From assembly GCF_024298845.1 (NCBI RefSeq), contig NZ_CP101156.1, positions 2,046,001-2,110,000 of the forward strand: 64,000 bases of DNA, in the 5' to 3' direction. The number at the start of each line of letters is the position of its first letter. Within the stretch, counting starts at the first letter, position 1. The notes under the pieces were generated by a model that was not told the origin of the DNA, ran no database searches, and saw only the letters and a list, made by a program, of their open reading frames with translations. Shown here piece by piece: positions 40,795-48,712 of the stretch. The position numbers and the translations under genes are program-made. The stretch is from Natronosalvus amylolyticus (GTDB lineage: Archaea; Halobacteriota; Halobacteria; Halobacteriales; Natrialbaceae).

Positions 40795-41385
40795 TTACTC
40801 GACCCCCGGTGGCTCGCCACTGATACCGAGGCGATTCCGCCGGGAGTAGTACCGATGTGCCAGCGCCGAGACGGCGAGCGTCACCACGACGAAGATCGTC
40901 CAGGCGGACATCGGGAGCATCGCAAACGGAGCAATCCCCACCGTTGCCCCACCCAGTACGAGCGCGATAACGCCCGTCAGTCCGAGGTAGTAGTCGCTCC
41001 AAGGGAGTTCACGCCCGCGAATGACGTCCATGTAGATTTCGACGTCCTCGAGCGCTTCGGTCGGCTCGACCGTTCCGCGGTCGCTGTTGTAGTCGACGAC
41101 CCCCGATTTGTCCATCTTCGGCAGGTGCGATTGCTGGAGTGCCGTATAGACCCGTTTTCGATCCTTGCTCGAGACTTCCTCGAGTGCGTTGCCGTCCTCC
41201 CAGGCGGCGATCTCCTGTGAGAGCGTCCCGATCTCGAGTGCCTGGTCCTCGCGCATGAGTGCGTGAAGAATGTGCCGTCGACGCTGATTTGCGAGTAGTT
41301 CGAACAGTTCGTCCTCCGAAAGTGTTGTCGTAGCTGATGCTTGTCGCTCACGTCCCCCCAAGGACGTCGCGCTTGCGGTCCCCAT
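40795..41385 (-). CDS. Membrane-anchored DUF7344-type winged-helix regulator
   Basis: 196 residues. The N-terminal winged helix reads LSEDELFELLANQRRRHILHALMREDQALEIGTLSQEIAAWEDG, with the haloarchaeal NQRRRHIL motif quoted in parts as DELFELLANQRRRHIL and LEIGTLSQEIAAWE. VSSKDRKRVYTALQQSHLPKMDKSGVVDYN follows, typical of DUF7344. The C-terminus has two membrane helices (YYLGLTGVIALVLGGATVG and WTIFVVVTLAVSALAHRYY). A membrane-bound transcription factor next to surface-protein genes suggests it senses envelope state. The likely target is the shared 335-bp divergent promoter with AGTCAAC repeats. Confidence 0.85.
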   Translation of the reverse strand: MGTASATSLGGRERQASATTTLSEDELFELLANQRRRHILHALMREDQALEIGTLSQEIAAWEDGNALEEVSSKDRKRVYTALQQSHLPKMDKSGVVDYNSDRGTVEPTEALEDVEIYMDVIRGRELPWSDYYLGLTGVIALVLGGATVGIAPFAMLPMSAWTIFVVVTLAVSALAHRYYSRRNRLGISGEPPGVE

Positions 41386-41720
41386 TACCAGTGGCTATTC
41401 GATGGTAGTGTATTAAATCCTCTGATCAGTCATCCATCCTAACATATTCACCGGTGGAAAATAGCCCCAGAACGGGGTGCAAATTCAGACTTCGGAGAAC
41501 GGACTTCTCGAGGTTCCTGTAACCAGTCAACCCCAGTAATACCGTTCGTTCGTCAGTTTCAGGCACCGGTTTCGGACGTTCCAAGCGGTCCAATACCAGT
41601 ACGTGAGTGTCGTTGACCGACAGTCAACTGTCGGGAGTAGGGAGTCAATTCCCGGATTACAATATGCCTACTGGCGAGTGGTTGACTCGAGTCCCTTAGG
41701 GGGGACCGGTGACAAACGAT
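41386..41720. promoter_or_regulatory. Divergent promoter region with repeated AGTCAAC motifs
   Basis: Five AGTCAAC-like words lie in 165 bp: 41525 (+), 41612 (as GTTGACC), 41622 (+), 41643 (AGTCAAT) and 41681 (as GTTGACT). Two interlock as GTTGAC-CGACA-GTCAAC and CCGACAG-TCAA-CTGTCGG (41612-41634). TATTAAAT around 41412-41419 is placed as the TATA box for the minus-strand regulator gene. Confidence 0.6.
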
Positions 41721-42389
41721 ATGCAACGACGCAAATTCGTAATCGGAATGGGCGCATTGGCATCAGGAACAGCGGCTGCGGTTGGCTCGGGTGCGTTCTC
41801 GGCAGTGTCCGCCGAACGTACCGTGAGTGTCGAAGTTGCCGATGAGGATACAGACGCGCTGTTGGGATTGGAACCGCTCGATACTGATCGAGTAGTTGAT
41901 ACAGGTGAGGGAATCGAAATTGATCTCACTGGCGAAGCTGGTGATGATGACGGTGTTGAACCTAAGGGATTAAACCCGAACGCATCAACCGATTTCACCG
42001 ACCTCTTCAACGTCGTCAATCAGAGTACGAACGACGTTTTGTTCGGCACTTTTGGAGGAATGGATATTAGAGATCAGAATGACGCTATAGATGGATGGTT
42101 CACTTATTCTACTGACGGAGAGCTAACTGAGGACGGAGAGCAGAATGAGGATGTCGATAACGGAGTTGGTACGGGATCCCCAGAGCTCGAAGAAGTCGAC
42201 GGTGGCTCAGGCTATGTAATTCCGGAGGGTGCGACGATAGACGAAGATAACAACGTTCGTTATCTTGAGCCTGGTGAATCGACACCAGTCTCGTTCACCA
42301 TTCAGACTACCAACGAAGATCTTGAAGATTTCGACGAAGAACTCACAATTGCTGCTGTCGGCGTTGGTACTGCACGTGATCAGCGCTAA
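41721..42389 (+). CDS. Tat-exported beta-rich protein, DUF1102/TasA-like (subunit 1)
   Basis: 222 residues. The start MQRRKFVIGMGALASGTAAA carries a twin-arginine motif and hydrophobic core, then GSGAFSAVSAERTVSVEVADEDTD. The mature protein is extremely acidic with FTDLFNVVNQSTNDVLFGTFGG, which matches the F-x-x-x-F-x-x-x-N strand of TasA/camelysin-like and DUF1102 proteins, and YLEPGESTPVSFTIQTTNEDL near the end, a second beta strand. Codon use is less GC-biased than neighbours (many ATT, GAT, AAT), which could indicate transfer or relaxed selection. First gene of a three-gene plus-strand operon. Confidence 0.75.
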   Translation: MQRRKFVIGMGALASGTAAAVGSGAFSAVSAERTVSVEVADEDTDALLGLEPLDTDRVVDTGEGIEIDLTGEAGDDDGVEPKGLNPNASTDFTDLFNVVNQSTNDVLFGTFGGMDIRDQNDAIDGWFTYSTDGELTEDGEQNEDVDNGVGTGSPELEEVDGGSGYVIPEGATIDEDNNVRYLEPGESTPVSFTIQTTNEDLEDFDEELTIAAVGVGTARDQR

Positions 42390-42433: not shown

Positions 42434-43003
42434 ATGAAACGACGAGAAGTGCTATTTGGTGTCGCCGGGTTGACAGCGACTGGTATACTCGCCGCCGGTT
42501 CGGGAGCGTTTTCGGCGACGAGTGTCGAGCGCACCGTATCCGTCAGCCTCGCCGAACAGGATTCGGATGCGTTGCTCACACTCGAAGCCACGTCAGATCT
42601 CGCCGAAATCGGTGATAATGACGGATCGCTGTTGATCACAATCGACGAGGAACTCGGAACCGAATCGGCAACAGGAATCAACGCCAACGCAACGTACGTC
42701 TTCAGCGATGTGTTCACCATACAGAATCTGGGCACGCAAACAGTCGAGGTCAAAGGAGAGGCCGGAAAGCTAACCGAGCCGGACGAAACGACTGGACAAG
42801 CAGACGTTGAACCGCCAGATGACGAAGAGCCGGAAATAACGCTTTGGACCGAAGACGGCGGTTCAGGAGACGCACTGAACGAAGAGCTGGATCCCGGCGA
42901 AGACCCAGTATCCGTTTCAGTCAAAGTAGATACGACGAACGTCGACACGGACGGTGATCTGGTTGATGCCAGTTACGTTATCGTCGCTGAAACATCAGAC
43001 TGA
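42434..43003 (+). CDS. Tat-exported beta-rich protein, DUF1102/TasA-like (subunit 2)
   Basis: 189 residues. MKRREVLFGVAGLTATGILA is a twin-arginine signal. It is followed by GSGAFSATSVERTVSVSLAEQDSDALLTLE, the same junction as the preceding gene over about 25 residues, so the two are paralogues diverged mainly in the mature part. Features include YVFSDVFTIQNLGTQTVEVKGE (F-x-x-x-F-x-x-x-N) and ELDPGEDPVSVSVKVDTTNVD. It is acidic with no C-terminal anchor, so either released or polymerised. It lies 44 bp after subunit 1 and 24 bp before the large surface protein. Confidence 0.75.
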   Translation: MKRREVLFGVAGLTATGILAAGSGAFSATSVERTVSVSLAEQDSDALLTLEATSDLAEIGDNDGSLLITIDEELGTESATGINANATYVFSDVFTIQNLGTQTVEVKGEAGKLTEPDETTGQADVEPPDDEEPEITLWTEDGGSGDALNEELDPGEDPVSVSVKVDTTNVDTDGDLVDASYVIVAETSD

Positions 43004-43027
43004 ATCATGGCACAAAATTTAAAATAA

Positions 43028-44593
43028 ATGAACGCTACGCGCGCCGGCGTCATAGTCGCCCTGATCCTGATAGTGGCAATCCCGACTGCAGCTGTCACGA
43101 TCGTCGAAAATAGTTCACAGGACCAGATTTCAGACGATATAGTCGCTCAACCGTCCGAGGGCTCGAACGGCGCGTATGCCTTCATAGATCCTGAAACCGA
43201 CGAACTCGTCATCGATCTCACCGCCAACAACACGGAAATCGAGGGAAGTGGGGTCTCTGTAGAGGCCCTGAGCGGGATCGATGACATCTTCACCCTCACC
43301 TACACGGGCGAAGACTTCGCACAGGTGTGGCTCGAGCACGATTCCGACCACGTTACCTTCTACGACACCAGTGGCGACTCACTCGAGGGACAGGCCAACA
43401 ACGTCACCCTCGAGCACAACGAAACCGTCCACGTTGGTTTCTCAGTCGACACCCGCGAAAGCGACCTCGAGGCAGGCGATATGCTCATCGACTCCATCGA
43501 GATCAACGCCCAGGTGCCCGAAGAAGATGATGACGACGGCCCCGGATTCATCCCCGCACCACCATCACCGCCCGCTGACCCCGACCCACCGGAGGACCCA
43601 CCTGAGGACCCTGACCCCCCAGGACAGCCGCCGATCGATCTCATCGTCGGCCCCGGTGAGCGAACGGCGGCCATCGAGGACATCCCGGCCGACGTCCCAG
43701 TTGACGTGCCCTTCGAGGCGCTGGGAATTGGTGAGTTCGTCACCCTCGAGCGCCTCGAAGTCACCTTTGCCGACGACGGTGACGCAGAGTTCACCGTCCT
43801 CGGGGAAGACGCCCTCGAGGGCGATGGCCAACCGCTGGCCGACGAAAACACCACGAGCGCCATCGGCGAGTTCGAGATCACGGAGACGCCTGATCCCGAC
43901 CGCGTCGAGACGGTCACCTACACGCTCGGCGTCGACCGAAGCTACCTCGAGAGCGAGGGTATCGACACTGACGCCCTCGTGCTCTACCGGCAAGCCGACG
44001 ACGGCAGCAAGTGGGACCCGCTCACCACGACCGTCGTCGAGGAGACCGACGACCAGGTGGTCCTCGAGGCGACCTACGACGGGTTCTCCCGGTACGCACT
44101 GGGGGTCGACCAGGCCGTCTTCACCGTCGAGGACGTGACCGCCGAACCGTCGATCGTGACGGTCAGGGAGTCGACGACGCTCGAGACGACCATCACGAAC
44201 ACCGGCGAGGAAGTCGGGACGTTCGAAACCGAGATCGTCGTCGAGGAGACGGTCATCGACACGGTGACGGTCACCCTCGAGCCGGGCGAATCCGAAACGG
44301 TGGCCACGGAGTACACCACGACGGGCACCGGCTCCTACGAGATCATCGTCGACGGCCAGGTGGAAGCGACGATACTGGTCGAACCGCCGGCGGAAGATCC
44401 GCCGAGCGACGACACGGTCGAAACCGACGACCTGGACGAACTCGACGAGCCGACGGAGGAGCCAGGCGGCTTCGGCGTGCTGGAAATCGGTGGCATCCTG
44501 ATGTTGCTGGTGTTGCTCACCATGGGGCTGTGGGGCTACCGAAACCGCGAACAGCTGCCATCTCGAGGGGACTTTTTCGCCGGTCGAGTGTAG
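43028..44593 (+). CDS. Membrane-anchored surface protein with PGF-pre-PGF-like and CARDB-like domains
   Basis: 521 residues. N-terminal signal or anchor helix VIVALILIVAIPTAAVTIV. Beta-rich domain 1 (about 45-165) has N-glycosylation sequons near N67, N125 and N131. A proline-rich spacer spans 172-202. Next comes a PGF-pre-PGF-like domain (GERTAAIEDIPADVPVDVPF to LVLYRQADDGSKWDPLTTTV), and a CARDB/Ig-like domain (IVTVRESTTLETTITNTGEEVGTF). The C-terminal membrane helix is ILMLLVLLTMGLWGY with a short basic cytoplasmic tail. There is no PGF-CTERM sorting motif. It is likely the anchor or scaffold for the two small proteins encoded just before it. Confidence 0.8.
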   Translation: MNATRAGVIVALILIVAIPTAAVTIVENSSQDQISDDIVAQPSEGSNGAYAFIDPETDELVIDLTANNTEIEGSGVSVEALSGIDDIFTLTYTGEDFAQVWLEHDSDHVTFYDTSGDSLEGQANNVTLEHNETVHVGFSVDTRESDLEAGDMLIDSIEINAQVPEEDDDDGPGFIPAPPSPPADPDPPEDPPEDPDPPGQPPIDLIVGPGERTAAIEDIPADVPVDVPFEALGIGEFVTLERLEVTFADDGDAEFTVLGEDALEGDGQPLADENTTSAIGEFEITETPDPDRVETVTYTLGVDRSYLESEGIDTDALVLYRQADDGSKWDPLTTTVVEETDDQVVLEATYDGFSRYALGVDQAVFTVEDVTAEPSIVTVRESTTLETTITNTGEEVGTFETEIVVEETVIDTVTVTLEPGESETVATEYTTTGTGSYEIIVDGQVEATILVEPPAEDPPSDDTVETDDLDELDEPTEEPGGFGVLEIGGILMLLVLLTMGLWGYRNREQLPSRGDFFAGRV

Positions 44594-44614
44594 TCCACAC
44601 CCGGGCGAGTGGAC
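44593..44614 (+). terminator. Hairpin at the end of the surface-protein operon
   Basis: GTCCAC and GTGGAC pair as a perfect 6-bp stem around a 10-base loop, starting on the last base of the stop codon of the large surface-protein gene. No T-run follows, so confidence is modest. Confidence 0.4.
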
Positions 44615-45190
44615 ACACGCAGCCGGAGAATCGGGTTGCAGGCGCCGACAGGCGAAACCGTGGTGCCGACGGCAATATCCCCGAGTTGGGTGTTTTCGAG
44701 GGTGAATGTATTCGCTCGTGTTCCCCAGTTCGAGCACCCACTGTAAGCGAACGATGAAGCGATCAGACGGGGGTCTGAGATTACTACACAATCACTATCC
44801 AGTGGGTAGCGTAGTTGTAGTAAAGTGTTGACCTTTTCTCATCTCGAGCGACAAACTCGTTCATACACGACTCACGGTTCGACTCGAGTTTCGATACGCA
44901 GACCGACTCGTTCCCTGTAAACGTACAGACGTATTTACAGAAACGAGACGAACGTTCATCCGTACGCGAGCTATCGGTCGTTCGGACGCACACGCTACCT
45001 ACACCGATCCCCCCATCCCCCAACCGATCACCGTCCCCCGTGGGTAGTCGACGAACGCCGATGACTGGCGATGCCGTGGACCGTGCATCCATTTCAACTG
45101 CACAACGCACACGTCAGCCACTCGTCTCGAGTGTGACGTGACACACCACCGTGTCATCCGACGCGCAGGTAACGGGATGGGAACCACCCC
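44615..45190. other. Gene-free region rich in inverted repeats
   Basis: No credible coding sequence lies in these 576 bp. Perfect inverted repeats occur at 44763-44778 (TCAGAC/GTCTGA around GGGG), 44781-44823 (TTACTACA/TGTAGTAA, 27-base spacer), 44915-44940 (CTGTAAA/TTTACAG) and 45139-45156 (TGACAC/GTGTCA around ACCACC). GTTGACC at 44827 resembles the motif in the 41.5-kb promoter. Base composition is lower in GC than the flanks. Confidence 0.55.
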
Positions 45191-46087
45191 ATGTCATACC
45201 CAGGTCCCAAACCCCGTACCGCTGCCGAACGGCCGTTTCTCGAGCGAACGCGACGGAAAGTGCGAGCCCTCGACCTGGCACTCTTGTTCGCTATTCCCGC
45301 CCTGCTGGTGCTGGTCTATGCGCTTCCCGAAGCGTTCAGGGACGAGTTCGTATTGTACTATCTCGAGCCCACGCTGCTGACGGCGTTTGCGTCCCACTTC
45401 GTTCACCTCGAGGCGACACACCTGCTGGCAAACCTCCTGGGGTACGGGCTGCTTGCCGGAGTGGGGTACCTACTGGCGGTGCATGGCAACTGTCGACGCT
45501 TTTTCCTCTCGGCACTGCTGGTTATCGTCCTCGTGTTTCCACTGGTGCTGTCGGGGCTCAACCTCGCAGTGCCACGAAACGCCGTCTCCTATGGCTTTTC
45601 GGGCGTGAACATGGCTCTCCTCGGGTTGTTGCCGCTGGTACTCGGTGAGTATCTCAGAGCGACGTTCACGCCGACACTCGAGCGACGACACGTCGGACTG
45701 GCCTACTTCGTGGCGACGGCGATCATCGCACTCATCGCCGTTCCCATCGCCCTGTCGACGGTCGCCCTGGCGACCACCTCTGTCGGGATCGCTGGCCTGT
45801 ACGCACACGGATTGTTGCAGCGACACTGGCAGCTTCGCCGGCTGGGTCGGGAAATCCTCGAGCGACCGGGCTACGGGGAACTCGCGCTGGGGGGAGGCGT
45901 GGTCTTCGTCTCGTATCTGTTCGTTGCGTTTCCCGCCGACGTGGTGTACGGGACGGCAGTATTGAACATCTACGTGCACTTTCTGGGCTACTCGCTGGGG
46001 TTCATCGGCCCGTATCTGGTGCTCGAGGCTGGGACGTACGACCGGCCGACCAGCCCTCTCAAACCCCCTTCCTCTCCCCGAGCCTGA
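45191..46087 (+). CDS. Rhomboid-family intramembrane serine protease-like protein
   Basis: 298 residues with about seven membrane helices. Rhomboid landmarks are HLEATHLLANLLGYG (H77, N81 for the oxyanion site), the catalytic loop SYGFSGVNMALLG (Ser137 in G-F-S-G) and YVHFLGYSLGF with the partner His263. Spacing between Ser and His is longer than in short bacterial rhomboids because of an extra middle segment (TLERRHVGLAYFVATA). It would cut substrates within or near the membrane. It lies 47 bp before the signal peptidase gene on the same strand, which hints at a joint role in processing exported proteins. Confidence 0.85.
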   Translation: MSYPGPKPRTAAERPFLERTRRKVRALDLALLFAIPALLVLVYALPEAFRDEFVLYYLEPTLLTAFASHFVHLEATHLLANLLGYGLLAGVGYLLAVHGNCRRFFLSALLVIVLVFPLVLSGLNLAVPRNAVSYGFSGVNMALLGLLPLVLGEYLRATFTPTLERRHVGLAYFVATAIIALIAVPIALSTVALATTSVGIAGLYAHGLLQRHWQLRRLGREILERPGYGELALGGGVVFVSYLFVAFPADVVYGTAVLNIYVHFLGYSLGFIGPYLVLEAGTYDRPTSPLKPPSSPRA

Positions 46088-46134
46088 CCGGAACACCCGC
46101 AGTTAAGACGGTGGGGACGTGATACACGTTCGTC

Positions 46135-47289
46135 ATGAGTGAGGGGTGGGTCAGTCGCGGGCTACAGCTACTCGTCGTCGTCGCGATCGTCGCCCTGCTC
46201 GCCGGGCACCTCCTCGGACAACCCGTTCTGTTGGGCTACGTCGAAACCGGAAGTATGGAACCGACGCTCGAGCCCGGGGACGGATTCGTCGCCGTTCCAT
46301 CGGTCGTCGCGAGCGATCCCGAACCGGGCGACGTCGTCGTCTTCGACGCCCAGGAGATCGAGGGTGGCGGATTGACGACGCACCGGATCGTCGACGAACG
46401 ACCCGAGGGGTACGTGACCCAGGGGGACGCCAACCCGTTTACCGACCAGGATGGGGGTGAGCCACCGGTTCAGGACGCCCAGATCGTAGCAACGGTCGCC
46501 CAGCCGACCGGCTCGGTGCTGACGATACCCGCACTCGGAACCGTCGTCATGGCGATCAACGCCCTCTTCGAATGGATTCAGACCTGGATGGCGTCTGCTC
46601 TCGGCTTACAATCCGCTCAGGGGACGACGGGTGCAGCCTACGTCTTGCTCGGTATCTCGCTGGCCGCCTACGCCATCGAAACCGTTCGCGAGCGTCGCCA
46701 ACAGGCACGCGAGTCGCGACTCGGACGAAACAACGAGGAGGGTCTCGATCCGAAACTCCTCTGTGGCGCGTTCGCCCTCATGGTGATGGTCGCCGCACTC
46801 GGGGCGATGGTCGTCCCCGCCGGAACACACTCCTACGACGTGGTCAGTGCGCAGTCGCCCTCCGACCGGCCACTCGTCATCGAACAGGGCGAAACCGAAC
46901 GGATCGATTACCCCGTCGAGAACAGCGGCTTCGTACCCGTCCTGGTCGGCCTCGAGGGTGGAGACGGCGTCAGCGTCGAGGACGAACGGCTGGCACTCGA
47001 GCAACGAGGTTCTGCAGGAACAATGGTTGCGATAACTGCTCCCGCAGATACCGGTGCCTATCAGCGATACGTGACCGAGTATCGGTATCTGTACGTGTTA
47101 CCGTCACCGGTGATCAGCGGGCTCGCATCACTCAATCCCTGGCTCCCGGTGCTCGTCATTACGGGGCTCATGGGTGGCGTAACGTACGGAATCGGCCGAA
47201 TCCTTATCGGCGACACGCCAGCACAACGGCGGTCGAAAACAGGAAGACGGGACACACACGCACAGCGAAGTGATTATAACCAATGGTAG
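46135..47289 (+). CDS. S26B signal peptidase with C-terminal extracellular domain
   Basis: 384 residues, far longer than ordinary archaeal signal peptidases. The catalytic part matches SEC11/SipW-type enzymes: S40 (VETGSMEPTLEPGD), H83 (TTHRIVDE, His replacing the bacterial Lys) and D98 (VTQGDANPFTDQDGG). After residue 130 come two more membrane helices (AAYVLLGISLAAYAIETV, LLCGAFALMVMVAALGAMVV), an Ig-like extracytoplasmic domain (VIEQGETERIDYPVENSGFVPVLVGL), a last helix (LPVLVITGLMGGVTYGIGRIL) and a basic tail. In this locus it is likely the dedicated peptidase for the small exported proteins. A TTAAG element about 30 bp upstream may be its own promoter. Confidence 0.88.
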   Translation: MSEGWVSRGLQLLVVVAIVALLAGHLLGQPVLLGYVETGSMEPTLEPGDGFVAVPSVVASDPEPGDVVVFDAQEIEGGGLTTHRIVDERPEGYVTQGDANPFTDQDGGEPPVQDAQIVATVAQPTGSVLTIPALGTVVMAINALFEWIQTWMASALGLQSAQGTTGAAYVLLGISLAAYAIETVRERRQQARESRLGRNNEEGLDPKLLCGAFALMVMVAALGAMVVPAGTHSYDVVSAQSPSDRPLVIEQGETERIDYPVENSGFVPVLVGLEGGDGVSVEDERLALEQRGSAGTMVAITAPADTGAYQRYVTEYRYLYVLPSPVISGLASLNPWLPVLVITGLMGGVTYGIGRILIGDTPAQRRSKTGRRDTHAQRSDYNQW

Positions 47290-47419
47290 TTACGACAAAC
47301 ACACATGAACGGTGGCGACGGTGGGTGGCAATGACTCGAGCCACGGTGTGGAAAACGGTTGGAGGGGACGTACCGGTTCGACAGACGAGTGGCAACCATC
47401 GTCGGGGTGAGTGCTGACG

Positions 47420-48712
47420 ATGGACACCCAACGCCTCCGGGTTCGACGCAACCTCGCCTCCTACCGATGGCTCGTTATCGGCATCTGTCTACTCGCCGTG
47501 GTCGGCGGTGCCTGGGTTACCTACGGCACCTACGTGGACCCTGGTGAGGAAGCGCACCAACAACTCGAGGATTCGTGGACGACGACGGGCGTCCTGACAC
47601 ACAGCGCCGTGGTCGAGGCGGAGAACACGGTGTATCCGGTCGGCTCACGGCTCTCGAATCAGCCGCTGTATTACACGCGACTCTCACCAACACTCGAGGG
47701 CGAGTTCGACGCCGGCTATCGGGGAACCACTGGCGACGACGTGAGTGTCGACCTCGAAGTAACCTTGCGCTGGGAGTCGAGCGACGACGAGCACACCTAC
47801 TGGCGGGAGACGGAAACCCTTGCAACTGCCAGCGAGAGTGGCCTCGACCCCGACGAGAGCGCGACGGCAGCGTTCGAGTTCAACGTCAGCGAAATCGAGA
47901 ACCGTATGGATGCCATCGAATCAGATCTCGGCGCGAGTCCGGGCGACCGACAGGTTGTCCTCGAGATCGAACGCGAAATCGAGGGGACGGTAGACGGCAC
48001 CCAACGGTCGACGACCGAGACGACCACGATCGACGTCGACCTCGACGGGAACACCTACTCGCTCACCGAAGACGGGAGCTTCGGCGAAACCTACGAACAG
48101 TACGAGACGGTTACCCAGACACGGACCTACGGCCTCGAACGGCGTGCCGGTGGCCCACTGCTCGCACTCGTGGGACTGGTCGGTGCGATAGGATTGACGG
48201 TCGTTCCCCCGAGTCGCTACGAGTTATCGCCCGCGGAAGCCGAATGGCTCGCCTATCGGGAAACGCTCGAGGAACAGGGTTCACTTGTGACGCGGACGCG
48301 ACTCCCCGCCGACGACGCCACAGAACCTACGCCAGGCGACGATACCACTGAAATGGGACGAAAGCAGCAAGCCCCACTCGAGAGCCTGGAAGCGGCGATT
48401 CAGTTGGCAATCGACCTCGAAGCGCCGATTCTCGAGGATGTCGACCGGGATCGGTACGTCGTGCTCACCGACGACCTGTGGTACGTGTACGAACCCCCGT
48501 CGCCGCCACACGAAGGTGGACAGACGAACGCCCTGGATGGGGGTCGTGACGACGCACCCGAACCGGCGGACTCCGGGACAGTTACTTCGTTCGACGAATC
48601 GATTCCCGACGCGGCCACGAGAACCAAAGAGAGTGACGGCAAGACGAATGAGTCACCCAAAGAAACCGGCGAATCAGACCCGAAAACGGAAACTGTGACA
48701 GACAGGAAGTGA
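47420..48712 (+). CDS. DUF5305 membrane protein
   Basis: 430 residues. An N-terminal membrane helix (WLVIGICLLAVVGGAWVTY) is followed by an extracellular beta-rich DUF5305 domain (SWTTTGVLTHSAVVEAENTVYPVG to YSLTEDGSFGETYEQYET) and a second helix (GGPLLALVGLVGAIGLTVV). A cytoplasmic acidic tail then contains SLEAAIQLAIDLEAPILEDVDRDRYVVLTDDLWYVYEP, a short conserved-looking module. DUF5305 genes regularly accompany this kind of long signal peptidase in haloarchaea to my knowledge. The role is unknown, possibly assembly or anchoring. ATG 47420 is preferred over GTG 47411. Confidence 0.83.
   Translation: MDTQRLRVRRNLASYRWLVIGICLLAVVGGAWVTYGTYVDPGEEAHQQLEDSWTTTGVLTHSAVVEAENTVYPVGSRLSNQPLYYTRLSPTLEGEFDAGYRGTTGDDVSVDLEVTLRWESSDDEHTYWRETETLATASESGLDPDESATAAFEFNVSEIENRMDAIESDLGASPGDRQVVLEIEREIEGTVDGTQRSTTETTTIDVDLDGNTYSLTEDGSFGETYEQYETVTQTRTYGLERRAGGPLLALVGLVGAIGLTVVPPSRYELSPAEAEWLAYRETLEEQGSLVTRTRLPADDATEPTPGDDTTEMGRKQQAPLESLEAAIQLAIDLEAPILEDVDRDRYVVLTDDLWYVYEPPSPPHEGGQTNALDGGRDDAPEPADSGTVTSFDESIPDAATRTKESDGKTNESPKETGESDPKTETVTDRK

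Follow-up and report, generated by a model that had tools for sequence, protein, structure and literature searches.

A conserved, helically phased dyad array between a DUF7344 regulator gene and a probable Tafi-type pilus operon in haloarchaea: a putative operator

Introduction

In Natronosalvus amylolyticus, a gene for a DUF7344 protein (40795-41385, minus strand) and a DUF1102-like gene (41721-42389, plus strand) are oriented divergently and separated by an intergenic region of 335 bp. An earlier note on the window, i.e., the whole 64,000-bp stretch of genomic DNA that was analysed, had described five AGTCAAC-like boxes in this region as a candidate operator for the DUF7344 protein or another factor. 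The question is whether these boxes represent a chance cluster of a short word or a control element and, in the latter case, which protein binds them and which genes are controlled. Our analysis indicates that the boxes belong to a conserved, evenly spaced array to which a gene switch, in all likelihood the adjacent membrane-anchored regulator, would bind.

The boxes within a single window

All five boxes were found where the earlier note had placed them: AGTCAAC occurs exactly at 41525 (+), 41622 (+) and 41681 (-), and one-mismatch forms are present at 41612 (GGTCAAC, -) and 41643 (AGTCAAT, +). The claim that such a cluster is improbable by chance holds only in part. Three exact copies within 163 bp were reached in none of 300 shuffles, whereas five copies with at most one mismatch were reached in 31 of 300. 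In addition, there are 121 different 7-mers for which some 163-bp segment of the window contains three non-overlapping copies, compared to 43-81 in 20 shuffles. Over the whole window, AGTCAAC is not enriched (7 exact copies versus 6.95 expected), and copies with at most one mismatch are slightly fewer than expected (124 versus 154). Because the 7-mer was chosen after reading the sequence and because 121 7-mers cluster likewise, the single-window statistic is weak and the comparative test has to decide. A chance cluster, singled out after reading, would fit both the many other clustered 7-mers and the lack of window-wide enrichment, but is contradicted by the conservation and the geometry of the boxes in 12 genera. 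The comparative data rule it out, although the single window alone could not do so, and we assign it a vanishingly small probability.

Conservation at orthologous promoters

Orthologues of the regulator (E up to 1e-55) are present once in each of 49 of the 125 genomes of the family. A divergent DUF1102-like gene accompanies 42 of them, and no divergent DUF1102 match was found for the remaining seven. The comparative set consequently comprised the 42 intergenic regions that separate these divergent DUF7344 and DUF1102 orthologues, with a total of 22,333 bp from 14 genera. In these regions GTCAAC occurs 140 times, whereas 100 shuffles gave 16.5 copies on average and never more than 27. When hexamers were ranked without bias and weighted by genus, none scored higher. 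GTCAAC is far rarer in the flanking coding DNA: of two sets of 25.2 kb each, the pilin sequences contain 32 copies and the regulator sequences 14. The enrichment at orthologous promoters that the earlier note had suggested looking for is therefore present. At least one GTCAAC is found in all 38 regions outside genus g2, and none in the four regions of g2. In 12 genera of the family, the boxes are found again at this intergenic position and with fixed geometry, so that a lack of conservation at orthologous promoters, named beforehand as speaking against an operator, was not what the comparison revealed. Across the 125 genomes, the exact dyad pattern described below has 44 forward matches versus six for the reversed control. 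GTCAAC as a general site of DUF7344 paralogues was also considered and rejected: only six of 36 paralogue loci have any copy within 500 bp upstream, with seven copies in total (two loci end earlier).

Architecture of the array

The comparison also redefines the unit of the array. The 7-mer boxes are real, but the unit is a 17-bp dyad, GTTGACC-N3-RGTCAAC, in which the half-sites pair as GTTGAC-N5-GTCAAC at a distance of 11 bp, or about one helical turn (30 pairs in 8 genera). The consensus of 57 dyads is GTTGACCGNNRGTCAAC. For further analysis, group A was defined as the orthologues with a divergent pilin gene minus genera g2 and g14 (Natrialba), which gives 34 loci. At least one dyad with up to three mismatches is present in 32 of these, and 33 have TTACAAT, or a sequence close to it, as core element. 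Relative to this core, a strict half-site is found in register -46 to -44 at 26 of 33 loci, and in 11 genera it is exactly at -45; further registers follow at about -98/-99, -151 and -205.

Neighbouring dyads (up to 120 bp apart) are separated by 21, 32, 42-43, 52-55, 74-75, 85, 96 or 106-108 bp, the exceptions being 39 and 67 bp. These distances are approximately multiples of 10.6-10.7 bp, with R 0.83 at 10.7 bp and none of 2000 uniform draws as good, a statistic that is inflated by the shared ancestry of the loci; when registers are collapsed to clusters, the phasing is weaker (16 of 25 in phase versus 10 expected). That the array exists, is conserved, is spaced in this way and is linked to the gene pair has been shown computationally.

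In the window, the main putative operator dyad GTTGACCGACAGTCAAC (41612-41628, no strand assigned) sits at register -45, its left end being 45 bp upstream of TTACAAT, and is the sole exact copy of GTTGACN5GTCAAC in its own 4.2-Mb genome. The window was aligned with two relatives: genome G003 of the same genus, which matches the regulator's closest named relative (Natronosalvus hydrolyticus, 94% identity), and G022 from another genus. The arms of the main dyad are invariant in both. A third half-site, AGTCAAT (41643-41649, +), lies 21 bp (two turns) from the main dyad and just upstream of the core, and its GTCAA has the same position in both relatives. The distal half-site AGTCAAC (41525-41531, +) corresponds to dyad register -142; its GTCAA is in the same place in G003, and the half-site in G022 is 11 bp further out. 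The remaining half-site, GTTGACT (41681-41687, -), is a doubtful operator near the expected transcription start (register +24). It is conserved in the sister species G003 but not beyond, and was rejected as core operator since G022 lacks it. In total, the alignment retains GTTGACCGA..GTCAAC, the downstream GTCAA, TACAAT and the CGAGTCCCTT...GGGAC stem.

The nested palindromes reported at 41612-41634 both exist in the window, i.e., GTTGAC-N5-GTCAAC at 41612-41628 and, interlocking with it, CCGACAG-TCAA-CTGTCGG at 41617-41634 (no strand assigned). Only the inner one is kept in the two relatives, whereas the outer one is broken in both; it is probably incidental and was rejected as an operator.

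Core promoter and leader hairpin

Downstream of the main dyad follows a conserved core promoter, TATTACAATA; in the window, the element ATTACAATA (41656-41664, +) occupies the TATA-box position. The core GTATTACAATAYCC has 27 copies in 26 of the 125 family genomes and none in the reversed control, and each of the 27 copies is flanked by an orthologous DUF7344 gene on one side and a DUF1102-like gene on the other; the window's own version is GGATTACAATATGCC. The haloarchaeal TATA consensus is TTTAWA, and the deviation of the core from this consensus suggests that it depends on assistance. About 28 bp separate the end of the most conserved dyad from the TATA position, so that the expected BRE is not covered.

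Immediately downstream of the core promoter, the 5'-UTR contains a stem-loop, GTCCC-TTAGGG-GGGAC (41691-41706, +), which could affect mRNA stability or translation. The majority of group A, Halorubrum-like and type-2 loci (for the latter two see below) have a hairpin in the equivalent position, with changed stems that nevertheless pair, most clearly in type 2. Hairpin energies exceed those of shuffles in the Halorubrum-like (mean z -2.5) and type-2 loci (mean z -1.9, n=14). The mean RNA z of group A is unremarkable (-0.98 versus -0.48 for an upstream control, n=33), and there the feature rests on its recurrence with changed stems and not on energy.

The DUF7344 regulator

The protein encoded at 40795-41385 is predicted to consist of a winged helix of the ArsR/RosR type followed by two membrane helices at the C-terminus. 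It matches Pfam PF24035 (DUF7344) with an E-value of 5e-29 and 100.9 bits at a gathering cut-off of 27.8, and no PDB sequence match was obtained at E up to 1. The AlphaFold model (pLDDT 76) comprises helices at residues 24-94 and a wing at 97-108, and two further predicted helices (129-149 and 159-185) look membrane-spanning; by a crude rule, two hydropathy peaks are present in 42 of the 49 orthologues. In VIA-align, the best Z-score was obtained for H. salinarum RosR (10.5), with CadC at 9.7, and Foldseek retrieved ArsR-family proteins (best E 0.037). The orthologue is single-copy beside the promoter, and a Pfam scan of eight window proteins and ten ORFs of two relatives found no other DNA-binding gene there, so that a second regulator adjoining the promoter was dismissed for the ORFs scanned. 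As a side observation, the genome of N. amylolyticus contains 22 DUF7344-like matches, a striking expansion of the family.

The probable pilus operon

The first gene of the operon that the array would control (41721-42389, +) encodes a DUF1102-like pilin with a Tat-like signal that is related to the Natrinema Tafi pilin. Its phmmer match to PDB 9p0a, entitled "Structure of Natrinema sp. J7-2 Tafi pilus", covers residues 1-115 with an E-value of 4.6e-9, the signal region making up about a quarter of this stretch. The corresponding Foldseek match (E 5.5e-3, prob 0.97) and one to archaeal bundling pili (PDB 7ueg, E 0.094) are weak, since the model of the pilin has a pLDDT of only 65. Pfam DUF1102 itself stays below the cut-off for this first pilin (17.2 of 22.2 bits). 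Judged by eye, the 9p0a pilin resembles the pilin encoded at the type-2 locus described below more than that of the window at its N-terminus. Archaea have TasA-like donor-strand fibres, according to excerpts of PMC9674648.

The genes that follow (42434-48712, +) are likely co-regulated surface genes, as far as gene order indicates operon membership. By Pfam scan, they include a second DUF1102-like protein, a DUF1102+CARDB protein, an S26 signal peptidase (46135-47289, +) and a DUF5305 protein (47411-48712, +).

Variants of the array in other clades

Halorubrum and its near relatives have kept the divergent gene pair but have few or no GTCAAC copies. An unbiased ranking of 23 Halorubrum-like regions instead placed GCCTGA and CCTGAA/TTCAGG on top, with CCTGAA occurring 59 times versus 4.7 expected. 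TTCAGG-N5-CCTGAA with up to three mismatches is found 74 times at the N5 spacer, at most 19 times at other spacers and seven times in the reversed control (N5). The spacing is 31-33 bp in 46 of 50 neighbouring dyad pairs, and the array extends into the core, whose sequence, ATAACGATATGGG, is related to that of group A.

A second DUF7344/pilin-like pair, L004 (G000:C1:2561406-2561942), is present in the genome of N. amylolyticus (G000) and has orthologues in most of the family, referred to here as type 2. Upstream of L004, a TTCAGG-type dyad, TTCAGGCCGGGCTTGAA, is accompanied by a second dyad 42 bp away and by an own conserved core, ATACAAAG. In 30 orthologous type-2 loci, the L004-type dyad occurs 13 times at N5 versus at most two times at any other spacer. 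In a tree with some poorly supported inner nodes, Natrialba falls within group A, the sister group of which is formed by Halorubrum together with g2, and type 2 lies outside. The group A branch seems to be where the half-site changed, with the geometry left as it was. That dyad, N5 spacer and phasing are kept with a TTCAGG half-site is as expected for a locally encoded, diverging regulator.

The regulator sequences follow this change only incompletely. The recognition helix, RKRVYTALQQSHLPKMD, is nearly invariant between clades with different half-sites, and a recognition-helix code was rejected because there is no clean difference between half-site types. Residues 56-57 mostly track the half-site, being SQ in the majority of group A and AE in clades with TTCAGG; residue 75 follows it less cleanly. 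Natrialba has group A-like regulator residues, yet its four loci with a divergent pilin gene have a mixed promoter with few, differently placed GTCAAC copies and one TTCTGG...CCTGAA-type dyad. Since the recognition helix hardly varies, the change in specificity must be located elsewhere, or another protein binds.

A separate observation concerns Natrialba aegyptia, N. taiwanensis and N. asiatica (L193, L198 and L199), which have the orthologous regulator without a divergent DUF1102 match. The TATTACAATGA core is present, as are GTCAA half-sites at -77 and -13; this is a rearranged locus in which the control element has been partly kept.

Proposed mechanism and alternative explanations

The conserved array supports reading the boxes as an operator, and we consider it likely that this operator array controls a Tafi-type pilus operon of haloarchaea and is bound by DUF7344 as phased dimers. 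Binding by DUF7344, its dimerisation and cooperativity, the direction of control and a membrane signal are what we infer. A 17-bp dyad with half-sites one turn apart would be the full site that a winged-helix dimer needs. With dyads spaced by about whole turns on one face of the DNA and the nearest one 45 bp upstream of the core, the divergently encoded DUF7344 would most likely bind as dimers, cooperatively along this face, and would stay membrane-held through its two C-terminal helices while bound. It would probably recruit TFB/TBP to the weak-looking core promoter, and for this reason an activating role at the pilin operon is the somewhat more probable direction of control, the alternative being silencing by a filled array.

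In the latter case DUF7344 would be a repressor, whose dimers fill the array up to the core and block TBP/TFB or the polymerase until a membrane signal releases them. The half-sites at 41643 and 41681, which flank the core in the window, the Halorubrum array that extends up to the core, and the structural neighbours CadC, CzrA and SmtB, which act as repressors, all point in this direction. Yet the 41681 box is not conserved, and activation is favoured because the best-conserved dyad stops about 28 bp before the TATA position and leaves the expected BRE free. We therefore regard repression as the less probable, though still a serious, possibility. It is unlikely, in our estimation, that the array serves a regulator encoded elsewhere, such as a soluble RosR/ArsR-like or TrmB-like protein, with DUF7344 being a mere neighbour or itself co-regulated. 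Such a regulator would explain why the recognition helix is nearly invariant despite the half-site change between clades, why residues and operator type are mismatched in Natrialba, and why a few exact dyads occur at other surface genes. However, the dyad is nearly private to this promoter, the core is found beside an orthologous DUF7344 gene in 27 of 27 cases, and the paralogous DUF7344/pilin pair has its own dyads.

A broader and more tentative generalisation, to which we give slightly less than an even chance, is that the DUF7344 proteins of haloarchaea constitute a large family of one-component regulators tethered to the membrane. Every member would be paired with its own pilus or surface operon via phased N5 dyads, with half-sites that differ between paralogues (GTTGAC versus TTCAGG) and were switched between clades, while spacing and core were kept. 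DUF7344 paralogues would then amount to naturally insulated switches that determine which pilus the cell displays.

Relation to known regulators

The predicted layout of DUF7344, an N-terminal HTH followed by C-terminal transmembrane helices, resembles ArnR/ArnR1 of Sulfolobus, the membrane-bound one-component activators of the archaellum. In excerpts of PMC13286277, these are described as transmembrane proteins with an N-terminal helix-turn-helix and a positive effect on a surface-filament promoter; in contrast to DUF7344, they are crenarchaeal and phosphorylated by kinases, and the excerpts do not speak of a phased dyad array. The same excerpts describe EarA, the euryarchaeal archaellum activator, as a winged-helix protein that binds upstream of a filament promoter and is bypassed by promoter-strengthening BRE mutations; they attribute no membrane helices to it. 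Its help for a weak-BRE promoter is like the role proposed for DUF7344, but the filament is a different one and haloarchaea lack EarA, as stated there. CsmR of Haloferax volcanii, also covered in these excerpts, is likewise a winged-helix regulator of filament genes; it is small (13 kDa), has 65 ChIP peaks and recognises a semi-palindrome, TATCA-N4-TGATA, beside the TATA box, with a half-site that differs from GTCAAC. RosR (VNG0258H) of Halobacterium salinarum gives the best structural match to the DNA-binding part (Z 10.3-10.5) and is a haloarchaeal winged helix with solved complexes, the solved chains having 110-114 residues. Excerpts of PMC3443676 give it a putative TCG-N-CGA site and a role in oxidative stress, which sets it apart from DUF7344.

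In the literature searched, the name DUF7344 gave no match and no operator of the family was described; DUF1102 in combination with archaea and PDB 9P0A were likewise without match. The array supplies the DUF7344 family with a candidate binding site and a target, the Tafi-type pilus. An operator whose sequence changed between clades and paralogues while its geometry stayed is useful for studying the evolution of regulator specificity, and also how membrane-held regulators reach DNA in archaea.

Finally, exact copies of GTTGACN5GTCAAC also occur outside the main promoter at four loci (L077, L078, L247 and L250). These sites are near a pilin-like gene (G016 and G017), near a Tat-signal protein (G016) and upstream of a second DUF1102-like gene (G053), and possibly mark further members of the regulon.
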